A DNA stretch of 64,000 bases from Eoetvoesiella caeni. GTDB lineage: Bacteria > Pseudomonadota > Gammaproteobacteria > Burkholderiales > Burkholderiaceae_B. The position numbers and the translations under genes are program-made. The stretch spans positions 248,001 through 312,000 of the forward strand of contig NZ_QNRQ01000001.1 in NCBI RefSeq assembly GCF_003315175.1, written 5' to 3'. Below, one piece after another: positions 6,864 through 56,965 of this stretch (position 1 is its first letter; every line of letters begins with the position of its first letter). The notes under the pieces are model-generated. The model searched no databases. It had not been told where the DNA came from and worked only from the letters and a program-made list of their open reading frames with translations.

Positions 6864-8990
6864 GTGGCGCGCAAAACACCCATCGAACGCTATCGAAATA
6901 TCGGCATCAGCGCCCATATCGACGCTGGCAAAACCACCACCACCGAACGCATTCTTTTCTATTCGGGCGTCAACCACAAGCTGGGCGAAGTCCACGAAGG
7001 CATGGCCACGATGGACTGGATGGACCAGGAGCAAGAGCGCGGCATCACGATTACCTCGGCCGCCACTACGTGCTTCTGGAAAGGCATGGCCGGCAATTAT
7101 CCCGAACACCGCATCAATATCATCGACACTCCGGGCCACGTCGACTTCACCATCGAGGTCGAACGCTCCATGCGCGTGCTCGACGGCGCCTGCATGGTGT
7201 ACGACTCGGTGGGCGGTGTTCAGCCGCAATCCGAAACCGTATGGCGCCAGGCCAATAAATACGGGGTTCCACGCCTGGCCTTCGTCAATAAAATGGATCG
7301 CGTGGGTGCCGACTTCCTGCGCGTCGTCCAGCAAATACGTGAGCGCCTCAAAGGCGTCCCCGTGCCGGTGCAACTGCCCGTCGGCACCGAAGACACCTTC
7401 CACGGCGTCATCGACCTGGTAAAAATGAAGGCCATCATGTGGGACGACGCCAGCCAGGGCGTGCATTTCGAATACATCGACATCCCGCCCGCCCTGCTGC
7501 AAGACGCACAGTCCTGGCGCGCCCGCATGCTTGAAGAGGCCGCCCAGGCCAACGACGAACTGCTTGCAGTGTATCTAGAGGGCGGCCAGCTGGACGAGAA
7601 CCAGGTCAAGGCCGGTTTGCGCGAACGCACCATCAAAGGCGAAATCGTTCCGGCGCTGTGCGGCAGCGCTTTCAAGAATCGTGGCGTACAGGCGCTGCTT
7701 GATGCCGTCATCGACTACTTGCCGTCCCCGGCCGATATCCCGCCCGTTACCGGCGTCGACGGGCGCGAACAGCCTGCAAGCCGGCGCGCCGCCGACGACG
7801 AGCATTTCAGCGCGCTGGCGTTCAAAATCATGACCGACCCTTTTGTCGGCCATCTGACCTTCTTCCGGGTGTACTCCGGCATCATGACGTCGGGACATAC
7901 GGTGTTTAACTCCACCAAAGGCAAAAAAGAGCGCATCGGCCGGCTGTTGCAAATGCATGCCAACCACCGCCTCGAGCTCGACGAAGTGCATGCCGGCGAC
8001 ATTGCGTCGGCGGTCGGCCTGAAAGAAGTCACAACGGGCGACACCCTGTCCGATATCGACCATCCAATTACCCTGGAACGCATGGTGTTTCCCGAGCCTG
8101 TCATCTCGCAGGCGGTCGAACCCAAAACCAAGGCGGACCAGGAAAAGATGGGCGTGGCGCTGCAACGGCTGGCCCAGGAGGACCCTTCATTCCGCGTCAA
8201 CAGCGATCCCGACTCCGGCCAGACCATTATTTCCGGCATGGGCGAATTGCACCTGGAGGTTCTGGTCGAACGCATGCGGCGCGAGTTCGGCGTCGACGCC
8301 TCCGTCGGCAAGCCCCAGGTGGCTTTTCGCGAAACACTGCGCAAGGTCTGCGAATCGTCCGAAGGCAAATTCATCAAGCAAACCGGCGGGCACGGCCAAT
8401 ATGGCCACGTCGTTCTAAAAATAGAGCCGCAGCCCGCCGGCAAGGGCTTCGAGTTTGTCGACGCAATAAAGGGCGGGGTCATCCCGCGAGAGTTCATTCC
8501 CGCTGTGGAAAAGGGCGTTATAGAAAGCCTGAACAGCGGCGTGCTGGCCGGTTATCCCATCATCGATGTCAAGGTCACCCTGATCTTCGGTTCGTCGCAC
8601 GATGTCGACTCCAGCGAACACGCATACCGGATGGCTGCGGCCATCGCGTTCAAAGACGGCTGCCGGCTGGCCGCGCCTGTCTTGCTCGAACCCATCATGG
8701 CGGTCGAAGTGGAAACCCCTGAAGAAAAAATGGGCGACGTGCTGGGCGACCTGTCGGCGCGGCGCGGCGCCATCCAGGGCATGGAAGACCTGCCGGGCGG
8801 CATAGGAAAAGCCCTGCGCGCGGAAGTCCCGCTGGTTGAAATGTTCGGCTACTCTACGACCTTGCGCTCGCTGACGCAGGGCCGCGCCACCTACACAATG
8901 GAGTTCAAGCAATACGCCCAGGCCTCGGAAACCGTCACCCGGGCCGTCGTGCAAGCGCATAACCCGACAGGCCGGGGCTCTTCAAGCTGA
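6864..8990 (+). CDS. fusA: Elongation factor G, stand-alone copy
   Basis: Translocation GTPase of 708 residues. All GTPase motifs are intact: AHIDAGKT (17-24), RGITI (switch I), DTPGHVD, NKMD and the G5 GSAFKNRG. Domains II-V follow, including [11 protein letters not shown] and the domain [12 protein letters not shown] block. It starts with GTG behind a GGAG site. It is not in a str operon: rpsL, rpsG and tuf are absent here and the neighbours are an ABC permease and yajQ. I therefore infer a second EF-G paralogue, although the sequence is close to the canonical betaproteobacterial factor. Confidence 0.92.
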
Positions 8991-40007: not shown

Positions 40008-42245
40008 GTGTCTGTACCTACTAATTCGCCTACGTCATTCTTGCGCGGCAATATGGCCGGCAGCCTGGCTTGCGCCATTGCTACTCCGGCATTATTCATG
40101 GCGCCATTCGCCGCCACCGCGCAAAACGCCGGTAATGTTTCTGAACTGGCGCCCGTGCAAGTTCAAGGCCAGGCACCGAACAGCTACGACGTCAAGCAGT
40201 CCGCCTCGGAAAAATTCACCGCGCCGCTGCTCGACACAGCCAAGTCCGTACAAGTCATTCCGCAAGAGATTATTCAAAACCAGGCGGCCTCCAGCCTGAC
40301 CGACGTACTGCGCAACTCGCCGGGGATTACTTTTGGCGCGGGCGAAGGCGGAAACCCATTGGGCGACCGCCCTTTCATCCGCGGCTACGATGCCCAAAGC
40401 AGCACCTACGTGGACGGCATGCGCGATATCGGCGCCACGTCGCGTGAAGTCTTCAACCTGGAACAGGTGGAAGTCATCAAGGGTTCCGACGGCGCCTACG
40501 GCGGGCGCGGCGGCGCAGGCGGCAGCATCAACCTGATCAGCAAAACCGCCAAAGCCTATGACTTCACCAATGCCAGCCTGGGCCTGGGTACCGACAGCTA
40601 CTACCGCGGCACCATCGACAGCAACTGGAAACTGAACGACAACACGGCATTCCGCCTTAACGCCATGTACCACGACGCCGATGTCGCCGGACGGGACATG
40701 GTCAACAACAAGCGCTGGGGCGTCGCGCCGACCATCACGTTCGGCCTGGGCACACCCACCCGCGTTACCTTAAGCTATTACCACTTGCAGACGGACGACC
40801 TGCCCGATAGCGGGATTCCCTACGCCACCAACTTGCGTACCGGCATTGTCGGACCGGCCGATGTCGACCGCAATAACTTCTACGGCCTGTCCAGCGACTA
40901 CCGCAAGACCACCAGCGACATGGCTACCGTCGGGATCGAGCACGATTTCAACGATAACCTGACCTTGCGCAACACTACGCGCTATACCTATTCAGACCAA
41001 AAATATGTTTGGACCCAGCCTGACGACAGCCAGGGCAACGTTCTGAAAGGCATGGTCTGGCGCAGGGCAAATACCCGTATCAGCGACGTGAACAGCCTGG
41101 CCAACCAGACGGAGTTGGTCGGCAAGACTACGACCGGCAGTCTCAAGCACAGTTTCAATGTCGGTATCGAGCTTTCGCAAGAGAAAGGCACGAAAGACTC
41201 ACTGCTGGTCGACCGCACGAATGCTGTCAGCCCCTACACGAAATGCCCCACCGGTACAGGCGCGGCCAGCGCTTATCAGTGCACCAGCCTGTACAGCCCC
41301 AATCCCAATGACCCGTGGGTCAACACGCTTAGCGGCGGCCGCGCAGGCAATCCCACCGACAGCAAAGTCACCACCAAGTCCGTTTATGCCTTCGATACCA
41401 TCGAATTCAGCAAGCAATGGCAGGCCGGCTTGGGCGTTCGCGTAGACAACTACTCTACTTCGACCAAGTCCAGTACAACCAATCTCAGCCGCGACGATAC
41501 GCTGTTCAACTATCAGTTGGGGCTGGTCTATAAGCCCGCCGACAATGGCAGTTTCTATATTTCCTATGCCACCTCCTCGACGCCGTTCAATGCGTCAGCG
41601 GGCGAAGGCAGCGACGGTTCCCTCCCTTCGCGCGGCCGAGGCGGAAATGCGGACCAATTAGCTCCCGAAAAAAACCGCACTTATGAAATCGGCACGAAGT
41701 GGGATGTGCTTAACAAGAGCTTGAGCCTTACCGCCGCCGTATTCCGTACGGAAACGACCAATGCCCGCATTATCCAGGCCAACGGCGATTACGCTCTGGC
41801 CGGCAAAAAGCAAGTGGATGGCCTTGAGTTGGGCTTCTCTGGCGCCATCACGCCAAAATGGCAGATCTTCGGCGGCTATACCTTCCTGAATGCCAAGCTT
41901 AAAGATAATGGCCCTGGCGATGCCAACAACGGCAACCAGTTCCCAAATACGCCAAGAAACAGTTTCAGCCTATGGACCAGCTACAAAGTCCTGCCGCAAT
42001 TCACCGTTGGCGCCGGTGCCTATTATGTGGACAAACAGTTCGGCGATCCCGCCAACAAACTGGAAATTCCATCGTACTGGCGCTTCGATGCCATGGCTGG
42101 CTATCAGTTCAACAAAAACCTAAACGTACAGCTTAACGTACTGAATGTCTTCAACAAGACCTATTACGACAAAGCCTACGGAAGCCACTATGCCAACATT
42201 GCTCCGGGGCGCGCGGCCATTCTCAATCTCAATATGTCTTACTAA
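40008..42245 (+). CDS. TonB-dependent siderophore receptor (PiuA/Fiu class)
   Basis: Outer-membrane receptor of 745 residues. A signal peptide of about 38 residues ends near AATAQN. The plug (about 60-175) has the TonB-dependent features SVQVIPQEIIQNQ, DRPFIRGYDAQSSTYVDGMRD and VEVIKGSDGAYGGRGGAGG. The 22-strand barrel ends in an aromatic residue (NLNMSY). It resembles catecholate siderophore receptors such as Fiu and PiuA. It starts with GTG behind AGGGAG. A Fur-box-like site and divergent tonB-exbBD support iron control. The substrate is inferred from the family. Confidence 0.9.
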   Translation: MSVPTNSPTSFLRGNMAGSLACAIATPALFMAPFAATAQNAGNVSELAPVQVQGQAPNSYDVKQSASEKFTAPLLDTAKSVQVIPQEIIQNQAASSLTDVLRNSPGITFGAGEGGNPLGDRPFIRGYDAQSSTYVDGMRDIGATSREVFNLEQVEVIKGSDGAYGGRGGAGGSINLISKTAKAYDFTNASLGLGTDSYYRGTIDSNWKLNDNTAFRLNAMYHDADVAGRDMVNNKRWGVAPTITFGLGTPTRVTLSYYHLQTDDLPDSGIPYATNLRTGIVGPADVDRNNFYGLSSDYRKTTSDMATVGIEHDFNDNLTLRNTTRYTYSDQKYVWTQPDDSQGNVLKGMVWRRANTRISDVNSLANQTELVGKTTTGSLKHSFNVGIELSQEKGTKDSLLVDRTNAVSPYTKCPTGTGAASAYQCTSLYSPNPNDPWVNTLSGGRAGNPTDSKVTTKSVYAFDTIEFSKQWQAGLGVRVDNYSTSTKSSTTNLSRDDTLFNYQLGLVYKPADNGSFYISYATSSTPFNASAGEGSDGSLPSRGRGGNADQLAPEKNRTYEIGTKWDVLNKSLSLTAAVFRTETTNARIIQANGDYALAGKKQVDGLELGFSGAITPKWQIFGGYTFLNAKLKDNGPGDANNGNQFPNTPRNSFSLWTSYKVLPQFTVGAGAYYVDKQFGDPANKLEIPSYWRFDAMAGYQFNKNLNVQLNVLNVFNKTYYDKAYGSHYANIAPGRAAILNLNMSY

Positions 42246-42354
42246 AACAGTAAATGTCCGCACAAATCAAACAGTCGCCGACATAATCCTGTAAAGACAT
42301 TGGGCCGGTCGTCCACCAGGGCGGCCGGCCCGCTTCTTTAGCGTTGGTTTTTTT

Positions 42355-46863: not shown

Positions 46864-46899
46864 CTGAAGGCGGCGCATCACCAGATGCACCGCCTTCAG
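46864..46899 (+). terminator. Hairpin after LivK-type gene
   Basis: Ten-bp arms CTGAAGGCGG / CCGCCTTCAG enclose a second short stem GCATC / GATGC, six bases after the stop. No T run follows, but the position and strength suggest a terminator. Confidence 0.6.
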
Positions 46900-46922
46900 G
46901 CATCAACCTTCAGGCAACAAAA

Positions 46923-46952
46923 AAGCACTTAGGGATTGCTCTCTAAGTGCTT
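46923..46952 (-). terminator. Terminator of tRNA-Val
   Basis: Ten-bp perfect stem AAGCACTTAG / CTAAGTGCTT, followed on the minus strand by a T run. It lies about 20 bases beyond the tRNA 3' end. Confidence 0.75.
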
Positions 46953-46972
46953 CTTACTTGTGCATGAAGTTT

Positions 46973-47048
46973 TGGTGGGTGCTACAGGGGTCGAACCTGT
47001 GACCTACGCCTTGTAAGGGCGCCGCTCTACCAACTGAGCTAAGCACCC
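46973..47048 (-). tRNA. tRNA-Val (anticodon TAC)
   Basis: 76-base cloverleaf on the minus strand with encoded CCA. Acceptor arms are GGGTGCT and AGCACCC, the anticodon loop is CTTACAA, and the T-loop is TTCGACC. The D-loop AGCTCAGTTGGTAGAGC is canonical. Confidence 0.97.
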
Positions 47049-53623: not shown

Positions 53624-54049
53624 TTACAGCGGCCGCTTCATTGTGCGGTGCTCTATTCCCGCGTCCAGATAAACGCCGCCTTCGGCAACAAACCCATGGG
53701 CGGCATAAAAATCGCAGGCGTGGCACTGCGCCGACAGCTCGACCTGGGCGTGACCGCGCCGGCGCGCCTCATTGACCAATGCCAGCAGCACGGCCGAGCC
53801 CACGCCGCGCCCTCTCCAGGACTCAAGCACCGCCATGCGGCCAATATGCCCGTCGCGCAGCAAACGCCCGGTGGCAATGGCATTTCCGCGCGCATCGCAA
53901 GCCAGGGCATGTACCGAATGCGCGTCCTCCTCGTCCAGCTCTTCCTGGACCGGCACCTTCTGCTCGCGCACAAATACTTCAAGACGAATTGCGCCTGCCT
54001 GCACGCCGACATCACCCCAACCGCCCAACCGCACTGAAAAATTTTTCAT
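53624..54049 (-). CDS. GNAT-family N-acetyltransferase
   Basis: Acetyl-CoA-dependent acetyltransferase of 141 residues. The start region RLEVFVREQKVPVQEELDEED and the acetyl-CoA loop SWRGRGVGSAVLLALVNEARRRG are those of the YjcF/ElaA-like group, and the end has CDFYAAHGFVAEGGVYLDAGIEH. The target substrate is unknown. The ATG at 54049 is chosen because it starts the family; ten further residues are available upstream. Confidence 0.88.
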   Translation of the reverse strand: MKNFSVRLGGWGDVGVQAGAIRLEVFVREQKVPVQEELDEEDAHSVHALACDARGNAIATGRLLRDGHIGRMAVLESWRGRGVGSAVLLALVNEARRRGHAQVELSAQCHACDFYAAHGFVAEGGVYLDAGIEHRTMKRPL

Positions 54050-54216
54050 ATACCTATACTCTGGCCTATCGACATACAAGGGCGCCTGGGCTTCGTTGCT
54101 GGCCGCCTATGCAGCAAAGGCCGATAACGGCCCGCTTGGCCCGAAGTACCGGCCTATGACGCTAAAAACAAGAACCAATACTAATATAGCAACAGATCAG
54201 CACTACAAGGAACGCC

Positions 54217-55938
54217 ATGAGCAGCATACTTACACGCCACACCGCCTTCTATACCGTCATCGCCGGGACAATACTTTTTCTTGGCCTTGCGGCGGCCATC
54301 AGCGCATGGTGGCTGCCTCTTGCGCTGTTGTGCGCAAGCCTGACAATACTGGGCTGCATCGACCTGCGCCAGACCCGGCATTCCATCCGGCGCAACTATC
54401 CGGTGATCGGCAATCTGCGCTATTTTTTCGAGTTCATCCGCCCAGAGATCCGTCAGTATTTTTTTGAAGACGATACACAGCAACTGCCGTTTTCCCGGGT
54501 CAACCGCTCTTTGGTGTACCAACGCGCCAAGCACGTCATCGACAAACGTCCGTTCGGCACCCAGGGCGACGTCTACGGCAACGACTACGAATGGATCAAC
54601 CATTCCATGAACCCCACCCGTCCGGAGAACAGCGACTTTCGCATCGTCGTGGGCGGACCGGACTGTACACAGCCCTATTCGCTTTCAGCCCTCAATATTT
54701 CAGCCATGAGCTTCGGCGCCCTCTCCGCCAATGCCGTGCTTGCACTGAACAAAGGCGCCGCCATGGGCGGATTCGCCCATGACACCGGCGAAGGCGGCAT
54801 CAGCGTCTACCATCTGGAACATGGGGGCGACCTGATCTGGAACATCGGTTCAGGCTACTTCGGCTGCCGCGATAAAGACGGCAATTTCTCGGACGAAGTG
54901 TTTGCGCGTCGGGCCCGGCACGACAGCGTCAAGATGATAGAAATCAAGCTGTCGCAGGGTGCAAAGCCGGGCCACGGCGGTATTCTTCCCGCCGCCAAGG
55001 TAACGCCCGAAATCGCTCTGGCCCGCGACGTTACTGCCTGGCAGGAGTGCGATTCCCCCTCTACGCACAGCGCGTTCAGCACGCCTATAGAGCTGATGCA
55101 GTTCGTTGCGCGCCTGCGCGAACTTTCGGGCGGAAAACCCACCGGCTTCAAGCTGTGCGTCGGCCACCCCTGGGAGTGGATGGCAATCGCCAAAGCCATG
55201 CTGAAAACAGGCATCACGCCCGACTTCATCGTCGTGGATGGCGCCGAAGGCGGGACGGGCGCCGCCCCCATCGAGTTCGTCGACCACGTGGGCACGCCTT
55301 TGCGCGAAGGCTTGCGCCTGGTACACAACACCCTGGTCGGCATCGGCCTGCGCGAACAGATCAAGCTGGGCGCATCGGGAAAGATAATCAGCGCCTTCGA
55401 TATGGCGCGCATCATGGCTTTGGGCGCGGACTGGTGCAACTCCGCACGCGGCTTCATGTTTGCGGTGGGCTGCATACAAGCGCAGGTTTGCCATACCGGC
55501 ATGTGCCCAACCGGGGTCACCACCCAGGACCCTAAACGCCAGGCCGCCCTGGTCGTAAGCGACAAATCGGTGCGGGTGAAAAATTTTCATAACAACACCC
55601 TGCAGGCGCTGGCCGAATTGCTGGCCGCGGCCGGCCTGAAACACCCCAGCGACCTGCGCCCGCACCATATCGCGCGCCGCATTTCAGGCAGCGAGGTGCG
55701 CGTTCTTTCCGCCCTCTTCCCCGACATGAAAAAAGGCGAACTGCTGGAAGGGAATTTCCGGCAGACGATATTCAGGGTCAGCTGGCCCATGGCCCAGGCA
55801 GAGTCGTTCGACCCGCTTTACAGCCTAAGCGCCGCCATCTCGGGCCATGGCCACATGCCCGTACCCGACGGCAACAATCAAGGCGGCGCCACCCAGGCCT
55901 TCGCCGAGGCGGACGCGCCAGCTGCTGGAAACCCATAG
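54217..55938 (+). CDS. Membrane-anchored FMN-binding glutamate-synthase-like protein
   Basis: A 573-residue protein with two N-terminal helices (about 10-28 and 30-48) and a large cytoplasmic Glu_synthase domain (FMN-binding barrel, about 130-500). The barrel shows SAMSFGALSANAVLALNKGA and DGAEGGTGAAPIEFVDH. A 3Fe-4S-type cysteine set C419-x5-C425-x4-C430 follows. There is no glutamine amidotransferase domain, so it cannot be a complete GltB. The family is found widely in proteobacteria; its substrate is unknown. A CAAGGAA site precedes the ATG. Confidence 0.87.
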   Translation: MSSILTRHTAFYTVIAGTILFLGLAAAISAWWLPLALLCASLTILGCIDLRQTRHSIRRNYPVIGNLRYFFEFIRPEIRQYFFEDDTQQLPFSRVNRSLVYQRAKHVIDKRPFGTQGDVYGNDYEWINHSMNPTRPENSDFRIVVGGPDCTQPYSLSALNISAMSFGALSANAVLALNKGAAMGGFAHDTGEGGISVYHLEHGGDLIWNIGSGYFGCRDKDGNFSDEVFARRARHDSVKMIEIKLSQGAKPGHGGILPAAKVTPEIALARDVTAWQECDSPSTHSAFSTPIELMQFVARLRELSGGKPTGFKLCVGHPWEWMAIAKAMLKTGITPDFIVVDGAEGGTGAAPIEFVDHVGTPLREGLRLVHNTLVGIGLREQIKLGASGKIISAFDMARIMALGADWCNSARGFMFAVGCIQAQVCHTGMCPTGVTTQDPKRQAALVVSDKSVRVKNFHNNTLQALAELLAAAGLKHPSDLRPHHIARRISGSEVRVLSALFPDMKKGELLEGNFRQTIFRVSWPMAQAESFDPLYSLSAAISGHGHMPVPDGNNQGGATQAFAEADAPAAGNP

Positions 55939-55975
55939 CGCCCGGAAGGGGCGAAAAACTAGTAGTAACCCCAGG

Positions 55976-56004
55976 TTGCGAAATCCGGTAGTTCGATCTA
56001 TCGT
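55976..56004 (+). promoter_or_regulatory. Promoter-like pair before the hairpin RNA
   Basis: TTGCGA, a 17-base spacer, then TATCGT, each matching four of six consensus positions. The expected start near 56010-56011 coincides with the first base of the first hairpin, which strengthens both calls. Confidence 0.4.
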
Positions 56005-56009
56005 TAAGT

Positions 56010-56117
56010 CACTGCCACACGGCAGTCTGACTGCCCTCGAGGCAGTCCTCGCACACCACGTCATCGTAGGTGTCCGCTGCCATCAGGCAGTAAGGCCCCG
56101 CCAAAAGGTGGGGCCTT
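56010..56117 (+). ncRNA. Candidate small RNA of five consecutive hairpins
   Basis: About 108 bases hold five hairpins in a row: ACTGCC-ACAC-GGCAGT (56011-56026), ACTGCC-CTCGA-GGCAGT (56030-56046), ACACCACG-TCAT-CGTAGGTGT (56053-56073, one bulge), CTGCC-ATCA-GGCAG (56077-56090) and a GC-rich AAGGCCCCGCC-AAAA-GGTGGGGCCTT (56092-56117) that could terminate. Three share CTGCC/GGCAG stems with different loops. There is no coding frame consistent with it. It follows the preceding stop by 72 bases. It could instead be a long 3' UTR structure. I recall a betaproteobacterial family of multi-hairpin small RNAs but cannot confirm membership. Confidence 0.5.
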
Positions 56118-56470
56118 CACGTTTCTGCACCCCCGGCACCCGCCTGCCCGACATCAATAGCGCAGCAAACCACACCAAGACCAAACACAATCCACGGCAT
56201 CCGTTGGGTTCGCAGCAGCGGCACGGCCCGGCGGTTTCGGCGTTGCTCATCTCGTTACGCTCCCCCGCACGGCTTTCAGCGCAATAGCGGGCACGATTAA
56301 TGCTCACGGCGCTCGATATACGGCACTCCAAAAAAACGGAGTTCACTCCGCAAGAAGGCTGTGTAACGCTATATACGACACATAACTCAGGTTCAATAGA
56401 TGGTCGGGCGCGAAAAGGCGCAATGGCAGGTTCAACTATGCTGCTCAAGCTGTTGGGCGAAGGAGGCTGT
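56118..56470 (+). other. Gap between hairpin RNA and orphan gene
   Basis: A 353-base stretch without a convincing gene on either strand; open frames here lack ribosome-binding sites and recognisable content. Near 56,365-56,385 an AT-rich TATATA segment could be the -10 region for the orphan gene that follows. Confidence 0.5.
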
Positions 56471-56888: not shown

Positions 56889-56965
56889 TGGTGGCGCATC
56901 CCTGATTCGAACAGGGGACCTGCGGATTATGATTCCGTCGCTCTAACCGGCTGAGCTAATGCGCC
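56889..56965 (-). tRNA. tRNA-Met (anticodon CAT)
   Basis: 77-base tRNA on the minus strand with encoded CCA. Acceptor arms are GGCGCAT and ATGCGCC, the anticodon loop is ATCATAA with CAT. The first pair of the anticodon stem is A-C. It lacks the C1 mismatch and GGG anticodon stem of initiator tRNA, so it is an elongator; an Ile2 (lysidine) identity is less likely but not excluded. Confidence 0.9.

Follow-up and report, generated by a model that had tools for sequence, protein, structure and literature searches.

A conserved array of five hairpins behind its own putative promoter is a probable small RNA gene in part of one bacterial family

Introduction

Does a tight row of inverted repeats lying between a glutamate-synthase-like gene and a tRNA-Met gene of Eoetvoesiella caeni encode an RNA in its own right, and if so, what might read that RNA? 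The row lies in the window, a 64,000-nucleotide stretch of contig NZ_QNRQ01000001.1 to which unprefixed coordinates below refer, and an earlier note had proposed it as a candidate small RNA (sRNA) starting at the first hairpin and ending at the last. Stem covariation, a conserved promoter, and a conserved final hairpin support that proposal, and from the comparison of genomes we regard the presence of a real structured RNA gene at 56011 to about 56124 as highly probable.

A row of five hairpins

The array comprises five back-to-back stem-loops, H1 to H5, at 56011-56117 on the plus strand, within one base of the 56010-56117 at which they had first been counted, and the stems of H1, H2, and H4 do have CTGCC/GGCAG in common, as the earlier note stated. 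The features of the locus are listed here, with frequencies among the 52 homologs described below.

55962-55971, plus strand: upstream box (−49 to −40), with a family tendency to GGG-N4-CCC; here GTAGTAACCC
55976-55981, plus strand: putative −35 hexamer TTGCGA; TTG within one base in 26 of 52 homologs versus 3.5% of controls
55999-56004, plus strand: putative −10 hexamer TATCGT; TANNNT at the exact offset in 52 of 52 homologs versus 1.9% of 312 control placements
56011, plus strand: transcription start predicted from the −10 position; also the first paired base of H1
56011-56026, plus strand: hairpin H1, ACTGCC/GGCAGT, loop ACAC; both-side changes in 5 of 6 pairs, 93.2% of cells paired
56029-56047, plus strand: hairpin H2, GACTGCC/GGCAGTC, loop CTCGA; both-side changes in 7 of 7 pairs, 89.3% paired
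56053-56073, plus strand: hairpin H3, ACACC-ACG/CGT-A-GGTGT, with one bulged A; both-side changes in 7 of 7 pairs, 91.3% paired
56076-56091, plus strand: hairpin H4, GCTGCC/GGCAGT, loop ATCA; both-side changes in 5 of 6 pairs, 95.8% paired
56092-56117, plus strand: hairpin H5, probable intrinsic terminator, 11 bp, AAGGCCCCGCC/GGTGGGGCCTT, loop AAAA
56118-56124, plus strand: short T-containing 3′ tail, CACGTTT; probable 3′ end

The segment 55970-56130 has a folding energy of −74.9 kcal/mol (z −7.15), with 0 of 200 dinucleotide shuffles as good, and in a z scan of 550 windows (the element and 549 tiles of 116 nt lying clear of it, 25 shuffles each) the transcript-sized window is the lowest of all, at −8.3. 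The hairpin density had been described as far above that of the rest of the window; this is true of composition-corrected stability, but not of hairpin counts or raw energy. Four to five simple hairpins per 120 nt are also present at other places in the window and were reached whenever its sequence was shuffled (10 of 10 copies), and in raw energy 10 of 2,203 windows elsewhere are at least as stable as the element. Two other stable segments of the window are 46865-46980, where two very stable hairpins beside tRNA-Val (z −7.7 and −8.2 on both strands) are probably bidirectional terminators, and 42225-42340, which holds a 14-bp GC-rich hairpin (z −6.5).

Distribution among relatives

In a BLAST search, 50 of 200 family genomes gave a match at E 0.01, in many cases confined to H5, and 30 loci were fetched in which a similar promoter and row of hairpin arms ahead of H5 could be recognized by eye. 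Covariance model R1 was built from these 30 loci and model R2 from 52 homologs. R1 scores at least 44 bits in 53 of 268 family genomes, 23 of them outside the model-building set, and R2 finds the same 53 at 56 bits or more, distributed over 20 of 43 genera. Looser thresholds extend the counts to 79 of 268 (R1, E 0.01) and 65 of 268 (R2, E 0.001), and the additional genomes, genus g2 apart, have scores like those of weak matches outside the family. Four g2 genomes, at 43-44 bits with R2, are probable homologs, retained because they have five hairpins, promoter-like sequence, and a glutamate-synthase-like gene 2 kb upstream; the g2 genome G096 scores 34.6 bits with R1, and G001 (genus g2) and G187 were rejected as homologs after their sequences were read.

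Beyond the family, a sample of 300 genomes of the order (R1, E 0.01) yielded matches in 41 other genomes, none above 35.2 bits, and the three best (L108, L109, and L110) were rejected, their alignments lacking the five-hairpin layout; the other matches score 30 bits or lower. The class sample of 369 genomes (R2, E 1e-5) gave two matches, one beginning inside the end of an H-NS-type-like gene (G917) and one following an apparent groEL end (G642), both as judged by eye and each with an ordinary terminator. All five of these inspected matches, the best outside the family, look like chance, and since G917 and G642 appear to be chance matches, scores near 44 bits by themselves prove nothing.

Within the family, we scanned 14 GNAT acetyltransferase loci, with about 1.5 kb on each side and no filtering, from 16 genomes lacking a strong match (the other two had no GNAT match); the best score was 29.2 bits (L181), without the layout. 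Carriers of the element include Castellaniella defragrans (DSM 12141, locus L052), C. denitrificans, Castellaniella sp. S9, Allopusillimonas ginsengisoli, and Neopusillimonas maritima, with Castellaniella and Allopusillimonas belonging to the Alcaligenaceae. The element is present in 13 of 38 loci encoding a relative of the glutamate-synthase-like protein, and no strong match was found in the examined flanks of such loci in Pigmentiphaga, Paracandidimonas soli, Allopusillimonas soli, and others; its distribution seems patchy even among close relatives. Relatives of the glutamate-synthase-domain protein itself, about 58-67% identical to it, occur in Lysobacter, its kin, and Solimonas, a scatter that transfer may explain.

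Compensating changes on one strand

When the homologs were compared for compensating base changes, the stems proved to be conserved, and the loss of pairing in relatives that would have spoken against the sRNA proposal did not occur. In a plain MAFFT alignment of 30 homologs (A2), 89.2% of cells pair and both sides have changed in 19 of 37 pairs, each value as high in 0 of 500 shuffles, and 77 cells have changed on both sides compared with 26.1 ± 5.3 in shuffles (0 of 500 as high); the number of further pair types in this unfitted alignment is not beyond that of the shuffles (51 of 500). In the model-fitted alignment of 52 homologs (A4), which is structure-aligned and leans towards structure, 94.5% of cells pair, both sides have changed in 28 of 37 pairs, and 240 cells have changed on both sides (0 of 500 shuffles as high; 21-59 cells with the partners slid), with the homologs in all of these covariation counts being related and the events not independent. 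Change is unevenly spread over the array: the stems of H1-H3 turn over with compensation, and those of H4 and H5 scarcely vary in sequence, H5 having 99.7% of its cells paired and both-side changes in 4 of 11 pairs.

Free folding at minimum energy returns five hairpin loops in 39 of 52 homologs and three in the remaining 13, because similar arms of different hairpins can swap partners. We considered a switch operating by such cross-hairpin pairing and rejected it: the swapped fold is chosen at minimum energy in those 13, yet it is without covariation, and arms pair clearly better within species than between species only where they are the two arms of one hairpin.

Because a G-U pair corresponds to an A-C mismatch in the complementary strand, the 100 G-U pairs found in the 52 homologs, against 35 A-C mismatches (and 70 other mismatches), favor an RNA transcribed from the plus strand. 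As for protein coding, 18 of the 52 homologs lack an ATG and 12 have stops in every frame; the remaining 40 keep at least one stop-free frame over the short length, which makes this test weak, and the argument for a noncoding product is that of stem covariation.

Transcription signals

The pairing of TTGCGA and TATCGT, 17 nt apart and predicting a start at the first hairpin, holds up across the homologs, where the promoter is conserved at a fixed distance from the array. Transcription from a base seven past the last −10 base would begin at 56011 and produce an RNA without a 5′ leader, and the comparison supports a sigma-70-type promoter that would be the element's own. Likewise, the conservation of H5 supports the proposed role of the last hairpin as a terminator, which a short and interrupted T tract follows (longest run 3 in 31 of 52 homologs). 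With weak hexamers and a broken T tract, neither promoter nor terminator was called at the element by a generic consensus scan; both signals owe their weight to conservation.

Neither the promoter spacer nor the sequence beyond about −55 shows much conservation in the information profile of the 52 homologs. At about −42, the CCC half of the upstream box is present in 28 of 52 homologs versus 5.1% of 312 control placements, and a GGG-N4-CCC-like dyad centered near −44.5 is present in 14 versus 1.0% of controls; only the CCC half is intact in the Eoetvoesiella caeni window. A dyad in this position lies where an activator could contact RNA polymerase. Two pattern searches for a regulator of the box each returned 13 sites, compared with 5 and 3 in the controls; the element itself accounts for some, and the others are too few to name a regulator. 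Box-like sites also precede a phytanoyl-dioxygenase-like gene and a possible sRNA: in two genomes (L204 and L210) the motif GGGTTTTCCC(C/T)AGGTTGACG lies, by eye, before the phytanoyl-dioxygenase-like gene, and these are perhaps the sites of one regulator. The other locus (L196 1500-1665, genome G006) has a GGGTTAACCCC box, TTGACG-N17-TATAGT, and a terminator ~100 nt further on, and is possibly another sRNA; with its similar upstream box it precedes a gene resembling, by eye, that of a urea transporter's binding protein, and it has no Rfam match at gathering score.

Mode of action

In outline, a sigma-70-type promoter would start the transcript at the first base of H1, with the upstream box a possible binding site for an activator, and H5 would end it after about 110 nt (56011 to about 56124, plus strand). 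With five short hairpins, nearly all of it paired and both ends sealed, the RNA should be stable, and we infer that it is expressed and acts in trans. Its partner, likely a protein, would read the shape and spacing of the stems, those of H4-H5 above all, and not a fixed loop sequence.

This proposal draws on the contrast between what is kept and what varies among the 52 homologs. Linker lengths are nearly constant, the commonest being 2, 5-6, 2, and 0 nt, and H4 adjoins H5 directly in 51 of 52. The loops of H1-H4 take 33-39 different sequences each, and the unpaired segments, except for the H1 loop, are poor in G. In same-genus comparisons (92 pairs, of which g29 contributes 36 and g38 21), stems are 81% identical for H1-H3 and 93% for H4 with H5, loops 53-64%, and the promoter spacer and flanks 31-36%. 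The loops are thus constrained at short range, with no motif common to the family.

Because stems and spacing are kept and there is no shared seed, protein binding is the most likely mode, and we tentatively favor, as plausible but still in some doubt, a stand-alone all-hairpin sRNA serving as a binding platform or decoy for a protein that reads stem shape and spacing. The more specific proposal of a scaffold RNA family made entirely of hairpins, confined to part of one bacterial family and read by a protein through five stems set at fixed spacing, with neither loops nor single-stranded segments keeping a sequence family-wide, is conceivable but on the unlikely side.

Two familiar protein partners were considered and rejected. 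GGA motifs in loops are the mark of sRNAs that sequester CsrA/RsmA, and unpaired GGA is present in just 4 of the 52 homologs, unlike a usual CsrA decoy. The ProQ/FinO domain (PF04352) is encoded in 3 of 20 genomes with the element and in 4 of 20 without a detected element; with 17 of 20 element-bearing genomes lacking the domain it is rejected as the general partner, although the three that have it include Eoetvoesiella caeni and a genus mate, where it may play a part.

A close rival to protein binding is that the same sRNA gene acts by base-pairing, with the pyrimidine-rich loops of H2 and H3 and the H2-H3 linker kissing mRNAs near ribosome-binding sites, and with loops and targets co-evolving within each genus, with or without Hfq. 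We consider this a tenable though doubtful reading. It accords with the H2 and H3 loops and linkers being rich in C/T and poor in G, and with the short-range constraint described above, by which the loops may themselves matter. All 20 element-bearing genomes tested encode Hfq, a figure that says little in a comparison confined to genomes with the element, and sX13 of Xanthomonas is reported to work by base-pairing without Hfq (PMC3771888). The absence of a family-wide loop motif weighs against base-pairing, C-rich runs occurring in 11 of 52 H2 loops and 10 of 52 H3 loops, as do the lack of a predicted unpaired 5′ end and a T tract that is short for Hfq.

Strong covariation over some 20 genera at an element with no Rfam family means that selection has kept this architecture, and the model and alignment are ready for use in annotation. 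The locus raises the question of what recognizes an RNA with conserved stems and spacing but loops that vary between genera.

Relation to neighboring genes and to DNA-level features

Upstream on the same strand is the gene for a glutamate-synthase-domain protein (54217-55938, PF01645), before which come a GNAT acetyltransferase gene on the minus strand (53624-54079) and, farther upstream, tRNA-Leu(CAG) and then an RNase R-like gene (named by sequence alone); downstream are tRNA-Met (56889-56965, minus strand) and a PAS/MCP chemoreceptor gene. The array could be a cis element of this setting, either a 3′ untranslated region or a stacked terminator or insulator of the glutamate-synthase-like gene that shields tRNA-Met from read-through, a reading we judge improbable. 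Forty neighborhoods were fetched and probed for seven window proteins and for tRNAs, 38 remaining after two (L161 and L175) were judged to be chance matches. In 18 of the 38, a same-strand glutamate-synthase-like match stops 55-347 nt before the element, and in 13 a same-strand tRNA-Met lies within 400 nt after it; both are consistent with a cis role, as is the terminator shape of H5. In 4 of the 38 the glutamate-synthase-like match is ~2 kb upstream. However, in 10 of the 38 no glutamate-synthase-like gene was found in the fetched stretch, and the only tested gene upstream is the GNAT gene, which lies on the opposite strand at a distance of 99-461 nt in nine of these and 1.5 kb in the tenth. 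Three more keep other neighbors only (L140, L145, and L148), and three have no tested neighbor close by (L139, L146, and L163). That the element persists in neighborhoods where a search turned up no glutamate-synthase-like gene speaks against a 3′ untranslated region, and against a cis element generally stand the promoter present throughout the homologs and the four covarying hairpins ahead of the terminator, which insulation would not need. In the Eoetvoesiella caeni window itself, ~770 nt separate the element from a tRNA-Met on the minus strand, unlike the close same-strand tRNA-Met of those 13 relatives, reflecting either a local rearrangement or a different tRNA-Met gene.

A DNA-level feature, whether a mobile or repeated hairpin element or a cruciform or protein site acting as DNA, is very unlikely. 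Inverted repeats do exist in the DNA too, and the antisense strand also folds and was matched weakly in several loci, but the element is single-copy in the Eoetvoesiella caeni genome and mostly syntenic rather than scattered, and the excess of G-U pairs over A-C mismatches is not expected from selection on DNA. Phage records gave no match and plasmid records four short partial matches covering 15-27% of the query; a 17-base piece is shared with four viral contigs, in which the covariance model finds nothing. Taken together, the comparisons show a conserved element that appears to be a separately promoted, plus-strand hairpin RNA, independent of its neighboring gene.

Comparison with known RNAs

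Rfam 15 (4,227 models) gave no gathering-score match on the element in the window and six homologous neighborhoods (L138, L140, L142, L147, L150, and L156), which represent 7 of 53 homologs. At 55930-56200, with E up to 10, there are three sub-threshold matches of other families (E 4.8-8.7), and at E 0.01 the L142 and L156 neighborhoods contain matches to tRNA, int-alpA, and guanidine-II only, none on the element; in L142 (genome G018), an int-alpA RNA and a guanidine-II riboswitch lie at 19-91 and 8899-8958, a few kb from the element. The earlier note mentioned a multi-hairpin sRNA family of Betaproteobacteria, presumably RF02278 (bdhR1/S17), a toxic sRNA of the same bacterial group, and if that family was meant, a reading of the element as a copy of it is refuted, because RF02278 (gathering score 50 bits) is not among the matches at 55930-56200 with E up to 10 and the genome's own copy is on another contig (C8:140844-140908, or L009 1501-1565; 67.7 bits).

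We file the element, which has no Rfam match in the seven homologs scanned, as a new family of intergenic small RNA, a known kind. A search of titles and the beginnings of abstracts, in which subscription papers are thinly covered and prior publication is therefore possible, returned no description of it. Among known RNAs, RF02278 is likewise a small RNA of the same bacterial group and present in this genome, but its model has 64 positions and its copy another locus; the S17 short form (RF02278, bdhR1) of Bordetella pertussis is reported to have conserved single-stranded target sites (PMC11722255), whereas the five-hairpin element has no fixed single-stranded site.

The BRE repeat (bprJ region) of Bordetella and other Betaproteobacteria, which came from an sRNA screen, is ~90 bp long and usually intergenic, and is reported to be usually repeated, in up to 29 copies, with only moderately conserved context and with three listed genomes having one copy (PMC3110155). 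The element, single-copy here and mostly syntenic, departs from this usual pattern, although its copy number is matched by those three genomes. RocR is a ProQ/FinO-bound sRNA that ends in a terminator hairpin (PMC9674577), as the element probably does, and the element differs from sRNAs of that type in the scarcity of the ProQ/FinO domain among its carriers. The element also resembles sX13 of Xanthomonas, which is described as an intergenic RNA of 115 nt with a row of three stable stem-loops and C-rich loops (PMC3771888); sX13 has three hairpins, an unpaired 5′ region, and CCCC/CCCCC loops, whereas the element, at about the same length, has five hairpins, no predicted 5′ leader, and variable loops.
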